Positions 17,948 to 19,869 of a DNA stretch of 64,000 nt are shown here, one piece after another (the stretch's first letter is position 1; each line of letters begins with the position of its first letter). Source of the stretch: an uncultured Synergistales bacterium (lineage in GTDB: Bacteria; Synergistota; Synergistia; Synergistales; Aminobacteriaceae); the NCBI GenBank assembly GCA_905233215.1, contig CAJODC010000007.1, positions 1 to 64,000 of the forward strand. The letters run 5' to 3'. Both the position numbers and the translations under genes were made by a program. The notes beneath the pieces were generated by a model. The model made no database searches and had not been told where the DNA came from. It worked only from the letters and a program-made list of their open reading frames with translations.

Positions 17948-18020
17948 GGCCTCATCGACTAGTGGTCCAGGTCGTAGCCCTCTCAAGGCTAAAACACGAG
18001 TTCGAACCTCGTTGAGGCTA
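17948..18020 (+). tRNA. tRNA-Glu (anticodon CTC)
   Basis: A 73-base cloverleaf. Acceptor GGCCTCA pairs with TGAGGCT (terminal G-U pair) with discriminator A. The D arm is GACT/GGTC, the anticodon stem TAGCC/GGCTA with loop CTCTCAA (anticodon CTC), and the T arm ACGAG/CTCGT with loop TTCGAAC. The 5' half closely matches bacterial tRNA-Glu. CCA is not encoded. Confidence 0.95.
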
Positions 18021-18089: not shown

Positions 18090-19637
18090 TCAGAGTATTA
18101 TCGCCTCGCTTGGTGTGGTGTGTTCAATGTAGTGTATAACGTTATCCTTAATGTGAATATCTGACGAAGTACTGTCTGTGAACTCGGTGTAAAGACTCAC
18201 AAAGTCAACTTCACTGTACGTCTCGTCAACAATATAGCTTCCATCGCCATGATAGCCTTCGTCAAAGTCAGGTACATACACTCTGTCAGGGCTTTCTGTG
18301 TTCACTCCGTAGTGTATGGCTTTGATTGTGTCGTTCATGAATGAATTTATGACGGTCATACCGCCGTATTCAGACAGCCAGAGAATATCAGGGTGATTGA
18401 TGACTGCGTTTTTGCCGGACTTGTAACGCTCTTCCTCAACGTTGAACGTGAATTTGTAAGGCCCGTGTTCTTTTCCGTCAGTGTCAGAATATTTCATGTC
18501 AATCATGATTGTATCGCCCGTGATTTTTGGTGTCAGCAAAAATTGTACTCCGCCAACCTCATTGCGCCCTGTTGAGCTGTAATCGTCATTGCCATCAGTC
18601 CTGTAAAATAACTCAGCAATCTCGGCTTCGTTATCAGCGTCAACAAAAAATATAATAGGGCAGTCTCTATGACCAAAATATTCTCCACGCGCTGCACTAA
18701 CGTTTATGGCTGCTTCAGGCTGAGTTAGATTCATCACTGTACCGCCGGGAGTGTAAATTCCGTTGTCCATTGTGAGATTGATTCCCCAGAATAACATCGA
18801 CAATGTTGCTACCGCTCCGAGTTCAGCTAAAAGCTCAGTACGAGAAGACCTTTTGCGCAATATTACCGCACACGTTACAAGGCCGACTGCTGACAGTACA
18901 GCGAAAACCGGGATTAGGAACGTCCATTTCCTAGCGACCATGAAGGTAACAGCAAAGACAACCGCAAATATCATGTCTGCTTTGACGCTGAATAATTTTC
19001 CGCTGATTATTCTTATCACGTCCGACCAGCTCACTGGAGGCACATCAGGAAGAACTGAAGACGCTTCCGAGTCGGTAATTTCTTTTTGAACAACTCCGAT
19101 TTTCATGGACGACTCATTTTCAGTGTCAGCAATTTTTTTCAGATACTCCCAAAATTTTACGACCTCGCCGAAATCAGCCTTTCCTCCACGCCTTATACGC
19201 TCAAGATATTGACTCTCACGATAATCCATTATCAGCCCGAAAATATCACGGTCATAAGCGTAGATAGTGTTGTTGTTCGCCGACTTCACTTCATGTCTTA
19301 ACGATACGAGCCTTGAATACCAGCCTTCCGAACGCTCAATGTTAGCGAGCATTCTTGATGTTGATGAAGAGTCCCGGCCTGTGAGCAAGGCAATATCTTT
19401 CACGTGAAAAAGAACGCTTCCCCCGCTGAACAACGCGAGATAACTTTCGGACGGAGCTTTTTTGCTGTACTTGTCGGCTAAATATTCGTCCCTTTCCTGC
19501 GGTGTACCCTGAAAATTCATGAAGTCGGAAATGTATTCGTCAACGTTGCGGAAGATAATGGCTCTGATTTTTTGGTAACGATTGAAACGTTCTCGTATAC
19601 GATGGATATATTCACTGCTGAGTTTGAATGTCGGCAT
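18090..19637 (-). CDS. Membrane protein with N-terminal winged-helix-like domain and C-terminal outer domain, function unknown
   Basis: I do not recognise the whole protein. Residue numbers are from the ATG at 19637, chosen because AGGAGG lies eight bases before it. Residues ~70-150 look like a DNA-binding winged helix: LFHVKDIALLTGRDSSSTSR is a plausible helix-turn-helix, followed by NNNTIYAYDRDIFGLIMDY. A charged linker follows to ~215. Three hydrophobic helices come next (about 222-237, 239-261 and 271-289). They would place the last ~225 residues, acidic and beta-rich by appearance, outside the cytoplasm. This is the topology of ToxR/CadC-like one-component transmembrane regulators, but no known output or ligand domain was identified. 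It is transcribed divergently from a small acidic ORF and converges on tRNA-Glu. Confidence 0.75.
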   Translation of the reverse strand: MPTFKLSSEYIHRIRERFNRYQKIRAIIFRNVDEYISDFMNFQGTPQERDEYLADKYSKKAPSESYLALFSGGSVLFHVKDIALLTGRDSSSTSRMLANIERSEGWYSRLVSLRHEVKSANNNTIYAYDRDIFGLIMDYRESQYLERIRRGGKADFGEVVKFWEYLKKIADTENESSMKIGVVQKEITDSEASSVLPDVPPVSWSDVIRIISGKLFSVKADMIFAVVFAVTFMVARKWTFLIPVFAVLSAVGLVTCAVILRKRSSRTELLAELGAVATLSMLFWGINLTMDNGIYTPGGTVMNLTQPEAAINVSAARGEYFGHRDCPIIFFVDADNEAEIAELFYRTDGNDDYSSTGRNEVGGVQFLLTPKITGDTIMIDMKYSDTDGKEHGPYKFTFNVEEERYKSGKNAVINHPDILWLSEYGGMTVINSFMNDTIKAIHYGVNTESPDRVYVPDFDEGYHGDGSYIVDETYSEVDFVSLYTEFTDSTSSDIHIKDNVIHYIEHTTPSEAIIL

Positions 19638-19740
19638 GTCTTGAGCCTCCTGAGTCATTTGCATTCGATTATGTAACTAGAAATGTGTATTATTCAGAGC
19701 AGATTTTAACACGTGAAACGAAAGGAGGTAACGAGAAGCG

Positions 19741-19869
19741 ATGTCGAAGTATAGCGATGATACTCTGGACGATATGCTGGACACTTTCGGAGCGGATAGA
19801 GATGAATTTGACAGCAGAGAAGAAGCAGAACAGTTCGTTGACGACTGCATGGACAATATGATGAGTTAA
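19741..19869 (+). CDS. Small acidic protein of 42 residues, function unknown
   Basis: A short ORF beginning MSKYSDDTLDDMLDTFGA and ending CMDNMMS. It is supported by an almost ideal ribosome-binding site (AAAGGAGG at 19721-19728, about 12 bases before the ATG). The product is strongly acidic, with about a third of residues Asp or Glu, and probably forms two short helices. It is divergent from the membrane regulator-like gene and followed after about 60 bases by a hairpin terminator. No homologue is recognised; with no cysteine pair or membrane segment its role cannot be guessed. Confidence 0.6.
   Translation: MSKYSDDTLDDMLDTFGADRDEFDSREEAEQFVDDCMDNMMS

Follow-up and report, generated by a model that had tools for sequence, protein, structure and literature searches.

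A predicted multi-pass membrane transcription regulator of Synergistales with exchanged outer parts and a palindromic upstream element

Transmembrane transcription regulators (TTRs) form a known and widespread class: a single membrane helix is present in 56% of the proteins, two in 17% and more than two in 27% (Demey et al. 2023, PMC10269533). Synergistota are absent from the text of this survey. ToxR and CadC combine a cytoplasmic winged helix, a membrane anchor of one helix and a large outer sensor domain. MarR proteins are soluble. Their operators measure ~16-20 bp, are near-palindromic and are often found in divergent promoter regions.

The locus described here lies in the first 64,000 nucleotides of contig CAJODC010000007.1 from an uncultured Synergistales bacterium, the whole stretch of DNA analysed (the window). 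Its gene product shares with TTRs the presence of a predicted DNA-binding domain and membrane helices in a single chain, and multi-pass TTRs are known. An earlier note on this DNA had considered a membrane one-component build unusual, a view not borne out in a known class with about 27% of members exceeding two helices (PMC10269533). Unlike in TTRs, the predicted DNA-binding domain has no Pfam or NCBIfam match, a candidate operator recurs across the family and the outer domains are exchanged. The predicted layout is that of ToxR and CadC, but with three predicted membrane helices instead of one and with long helices around the winged helix, arranged as in MarR; the OmpR-type winged helix (Trans_reg_C) gave no match in 11 members. 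The regulator resembles MarR proteins in the predicted N-terminal order of helices and strands, has its top Foldseek matches among them and has an 18-bp family dyad in a divergent promoter region, while differing in the membrane and outer part that follow the winged helix.

Two family memberships were considered and rejected. The MarR model PF01047 matches two of 11 members (best E 0.031), none passing its cut-off; the match of L026 reaches 15.1 bits for a cut-off of 24.6, and the best E overall with this model is about 0.02. Topology and structural matches agree with MarR, but these statistics are too weak for membership. The likeness to Virulence_RhuM (PF13310), seen in the helix-turn-helix and the following Y...IFDLI segment, is superficial: hhalign aligns only 30 columns of the helix-turn-helix with a probability of 0.6-0.8%. 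True RhuM genes exist separately in other Synergistales. The predicted regulator is assigned to a new, previously unnamed family, most likely of the known TTR class; no description of it was found in the open-access full-text literature, most subscription papers lying outside that search.

The regulator gene and its product

The coding features, all on the minus strand, are the following.

18090..19637, minus strand: regulator gene, 515 aa, stop codon 18090-18092 (open frame, conserved start, full-length homologs)
19107..19637, minus strand: predicted cytoplasmic winged-helix domain, residues 1-177 (AF2 mean pLDDT 82, pTM 0.78; MarR proteins top in Foldseek)
19332..19403, minus strand: predicted helix-turn-helix, residues 79-102, recognition helix 90-102 (AF2 secondary structure; family conservation)
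19254..19298, minus strand: predicted wing, strands 114-118 and 124-128 (AF2)
18927..18986, minus strand: predicted membrane helix 1, residues 218-237 (AF2, hydropathy)
18855..18923, minus strand: predicted membrane helix 2, residues 239-261 (AF2, hydropathy)
18774..18839, minus strand: predicted membrane helix 3, residues 267-288 (AF2; family mean hydropathy 1.55)
18093..18773, minus strand: predicted outer region, residues 289-515, acidic (40 D+E versus 14 K+R; no profile match; AF2 pLDDT below 50)

The longest open frame begins at position 19664. The ATG at 19637 was assigned as start because it opens a conserved MPxF sequence and has its own ribosome-binding site (AGGAGG), in agreement with the frame 18090-19637 of the earlier note; the coding part without the stop codon spans 18093-19637. 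The gene is not a chance ORF since ten homologs align along the entire protein with 30-66% identity and ~50 invariant columns. Sequence searches with the regulator protein in Pfam, NCBIfam and PDB gave no match above any threshold. A tRNA-Glu gene (CTC anticodon, window positions 17948-18020) is found directly downstream on the opposite strand. A tRNA-linked island was rejected, as most relatives checked have no tRNA nearby.

AF2 predicts in residues 1-177 helices 8-41, 46-58, 79-86, 90-102 and 107-111, the two strands of the wing, and helices 132-151 and 156-175. This order of elements corresponds to a winged helix embedded among long helices, as in MarR. The segment LFHVKDIALLTGRDSSSTSR (residues 76-95), which the earlier note took for a helix-turn-helix, coincides with predicted helices 79-86 and 90-102 followed by the beta wing, and the fold predicted around residues 60-150 has the winged helix at the place proposed. 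Neither outcome named in the earlier note as refuting its reading appeared: a DNA-binding fold is predicted, and searches matched neither end of the protein to an enzyme family. Foldseek searches of PDB with residues 1-177 returned almost exclusively MarR proteins in the top ranks, with a non-significant best E of 0.012 and low TM-scores (0.2-0.3 overall, 0.22-0.26 for MarR matches); this likeness is suggestive, short of proof. Profile comparison sets the helix-turn-helix in register with MarR recognition helices, and its GRDxSSxSR motif, covering the recognition helix, is the best-conserved stretch of the family. The same segment in other members gives weak matches to MarR, IclR, HTH_23, HTH_38 and similar models, none of the DNA-binding family models exceeding its own cut-off in the regulator or in the members scanned. 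Residues 1-177 are predicted to be a DNA-binding winged helix.

The three membrane helices claimed previously are predicted by AF2 and are common to 25 aligned members; hydropathy supports strongly helices 1 and 2 and more weakly helix 3. Positive net charge marks the N-terminal side and the second loop, the C-terminal region is acidic and the short first loop also carries positive charge. In spite of the latter, the charge distribution favours a predicted topology with the amino terminus inside and the carboxyl terminus outside. The outer region comprises 227 acidic residues without recognisable fold. Its sequence (residues 289-515) has no profile match in PDB or NCBIfam, so that the ~225 residues of the earlier note are indeed unmatched, while their outside location is a prediction. 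The full-length AF2 run used an alignment of three rows; its model can be used for the N-terminal and membrane parts, but not for the outer part. Two halves of the outer region look similar by eye (IKEIFYR..STG..VKYxDxxGKEHGP and VKAVxYGINTxxPD..FxDGTSSDIR). The outer domains Y_Y_Y and CHB_HEX_C were rejected, as a six-frame search of the window's genome with both models missed the regulator gene.

Family distribution and exchanged outer parts

Two named genome contigs, one from a goat-reticulum Synergistaceae MAG and one from an uncultured Fretibacterium MAG, contain homologs, as do 19 out of 61 relatives and, by profile search, 39 of 183 Synergistales genomes distributed over 11 of 59 genera. 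The profile search covered this order alone and the restriction of the family to Synergistales is provisional; phages, plasmids and viral contigs searched contained no relatives. Many genomes have several copies, up to seven matches in G030, where two copies sit in stretches identical across 15.9 kb that are perhaps an assembly duplicate. Some copies are split or contain stop codons (G004, G015, G018, G033).

Winged helix and three helices are constant in the membrane members, while the part that follows is exchanged. It can be the 225-residue region of the window type, ~110 residues of that region, a region of a different kind (L074), or ~500 residues rich in alanine and leucine and probably helical (L065 and L066, 51% identical over almost the whole protein). 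Other members have no membrane part and end after the winged helix (L034, L035, L082, L077, L065:5358-6026). Judged from these sequences, a constant chassis with changing outer parts is what one would expect of a regulator whose input domains can be exchanged.

Genes of varied nature adjoin some members. Membrane-free L035:7450-8073 lies beside eukaryote-like genes for a protein kinase and an AAA ATPase, L082:1441-2157 beside a kinase-like gene similar to the one at L035, and L034:7397-8056 beside genes for an FHA/zinc-ribbon protein and ankyrin-repeat proteins. Ankyrin proteins also flank L065 and L074, which are membrane members. A conserved gene of 71-72 aa (RVAIQTRFDEETYAKGK..) precedes the regulator in the same direction in the f4 taxonomic family (L069:50-265, L070, L072:6977-7189). 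Its product, possibly a ribbon-helix-helix protein, has no Pfam match in the case of L069.

The upstream dyad and the divergent small genes

The region upstream of the regulator gene holds three further features.

19653-19670, minus strand: candidate operator AATCGAATGCAAATGACT, copy of the family 18-bp dyad (family conservation, dyad symmetry, sole good genome match)
19689..19717, minus strand: possible sigma-70-type promoter TTCACG-17-AATAAT of the regulator gene (weak; consensus scan at chance level)
19741..19869, plus strand: divergent acidic ORF, 42 aa, possible second target (open frame with ribosome-binding site)

When the sequences upstream of the window gene and of six relatives are aligned, a single block stands out as conserved, AATCGAATGCAWCTGACTC, immediately ahead of the ribosome-binding site; L008 carries it twice. 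The pattern TCNAATGCNNNTGAYT was searched with up to 2 mismatches in the upstream 150 bp of each gene in a non-redundant set of 44 family members, which includes the seven genes from which the pattern was derived. It is present in 28 of the 44, whereas reversed sequences give 0 and dinucleotide shuffles average 0.7, with 3 as the maximum; the enrichment reaches far beyond the seven genes. The other 16 show no clear site under these settings, and no clear element appeared in the upstream scan of membrane-free members. The element carries 25 bits, with the consensus AATCGAATG|CATYTGATT. Its two-fold symmetry has a permutation p of 0.0007 for the 18-bp span and of 0.007 when all spans are allowed for; the most symmetric natural copies are AATCGAATGCATTTGATT (L012, L024) and AATCTAATGCACTAGATT (L029). 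In the distant f4 family, AATCAATTGCATCTGATT overlaps the first codons and conservation of DNA and protein is inseparable there. A coded peptide as the cause of the 5' element was rejected: past an internal ATG the codons shift amino acids and frame among relatives, and the DNA is kept.

The dyad is tied to the family genes. Its copy in the window is located inside the target region 19638-19740 proposed by the earlier note; the 1.74-Mb genome has no second good site, and a genome-wide regulon was rejected for that reason. Across 43 genomes of the genus, matches with at most 1 mismatch clearly exceed the reversed control, and exact matches are nearly all beside a family gene. Two exact matches are exceptions: one falls within a uvrC-like gene, the other beside a likely insertion-sequence end, with no family gene. 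Sites elsewhere in the genus, among those examined, are mostly inside coding genes (three of them uvrC-like) or beside remnants. The dyad at L202:430-447 is next to a ribosome-binding site and the first codons of a broken family gene, the one at L187:2357-2374 beside an apparent insertion-sequence end and the one at L188:1904-1921 near a GTPase gene; no intact family gene accompanies these copies, which resemble remnants of family loci since lost.

The dyad often sits in an intergenic region common to the family gene and a tiny divergent gene. In the window's taxonomic family the first upstream gene is divergent, codes for no more than 135 aa and lies within 350 bp in 19 of 31 membrane members by hand count, versus 7 of 51 control genes handled alike; some loci are closely related and not all are independent. 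The divergent partners include cytosolic zinc-ribbon-like proteins of 42-44 aa (L001, L002, L083, L219), mostly secreted proteins with an HWxCxxCG..C..HSW-like sequence (L030, L031, L032, L218, L226, L230) and small membrane proteins (L001, L225, L227), none of the small partners scanned scoring above cut-off in Pfam. One small protein recurring beside family genes (L030, L031, L032, L218, L226, L230, L026, L027) usually has a signal-peptide-like start and a CxxC...C...H.W core, doubly repeated in L030, and belongs to no Pfam family. At L220:2991-4319 a radical SAM/SPASM protein takes the place of the tiny divergent gene, and two dyad copies are present at the locus.

The 42-aa acidic ORF has no homolog in the 43 genomes of the genus and was rejected as a conserved partner. 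Its control by the regulator, suggested earlier, is plausible because the dyad lies in the shared intergenic region.

Proposed mechanism and alternative readings

With a probability of roughly 0.7, the protein represents a new family of one-component transcription regulators with several membrane passes; it would bind the dyad upstream of its gene as a dimer, probably repress its own gene and respond to a signal from outside. We infer its DNA binding, dimerisation, sign of regulation and ligand. The N-terminal winged helix would remain in the cytoplasm and a dimer of it would bind the 18-bp inverted repeat upstream of its own gene. Occupancy of the dyad would most likely repress the regulator gene, since the site is just before the ribosome-binding site and downstream of the likely promoter; the position of the dyad relative to the transcription start is itself conjectural because the promoter match at 19689-19717 is at chance level. 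Occupancy may also control the divergent gene, perhaps the 42-aa acidic ORF. The exchangeable outer domain would sense an external or envelope condition, and the signal would pass via the three membrane helices and the linker (about residues 178-203) to alter DNA binding. The output of the regulator may be only itself, as the window's genome has no second target.

It is unlikely that the dyad, real in itself, is the site of a different factor or works within the 5' leader RNA, with the winged helix being a protein-interaction or degenerate domain. Location of the dyad in or near the transcribed leader and the family genes without a dyad are compatible with such a role, but a perfect, loop-less palindrome centred on GC makes a poor RNA hairpin and a good dimer site, and Rfam gave no match at the dyad. 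Furthermore, the dyad follows family genes from genus to genus and does not otherwise occur in the window's genome, a distribution more in keeping with self-recognition than with a global factor. The recognition helix (GRDxSSxSR) is among the best-conserved parts of the protein.

A conflict module formed by the divergent small gene and the membrane protein, either toxin-antitoxin-like or for envelope defence, is very unlikely to replace an environmental sensor here. Fast turnover with split and stop-containing copies, small partners that change and include secreted or zinc-ribbon-like Cys proteins, and the kinase, AAA, FHA and ankyrin genes near membrane-free relatives would suit it; against it stand the lack of phage or plasmid relatives and partners too varied for a single toxin-antitoxin pair, the window's acidic ORF being unique. 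Membership in a defence system was rejected as PADLOC gave no credible match. Most improbable is a protein without transcription output whose role is to anchor DNA or the nucleoid at the membrane or to organise the chromosome. The fusion of a predicted DNA-binding domain to membrane helices and the single dyad site per genome in the window's organism are what a tether might show, yet the dyad is nearly always within 150 bp upstream of its own gene, the place of an autoregulatory operator, and the outer domains are large and exchanged.

If the protein is the membrane transcription regulator proposed here, its private palindromic site is an immediate testable target, and the constant chassis with its exchangeable outer domains lets one follow, as in a natural experiment, how a three-helix membrane anchor relays a signal to a DNA-binding domain. 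Surveys of membrane regulators depend on DNA-binding models already known and would probably overlook this family, so that the class may be undercounted in Synergistota. A broader proposal, less likely than not, is a platform of lineage-specific membrane-embedded switches. One winged-helix/three-helix chassis with soluble relatives would accept exchangeable outer sensors (beta, all-helical and others). Each copy would act on a near-private 18-bp operator in a divergent promoter region and drive a tiny, fast-changing partner of its own, an envelope or zinc-ribbon protein. If so, these genomes would collect sensor-effector pairs much like two-component systems.
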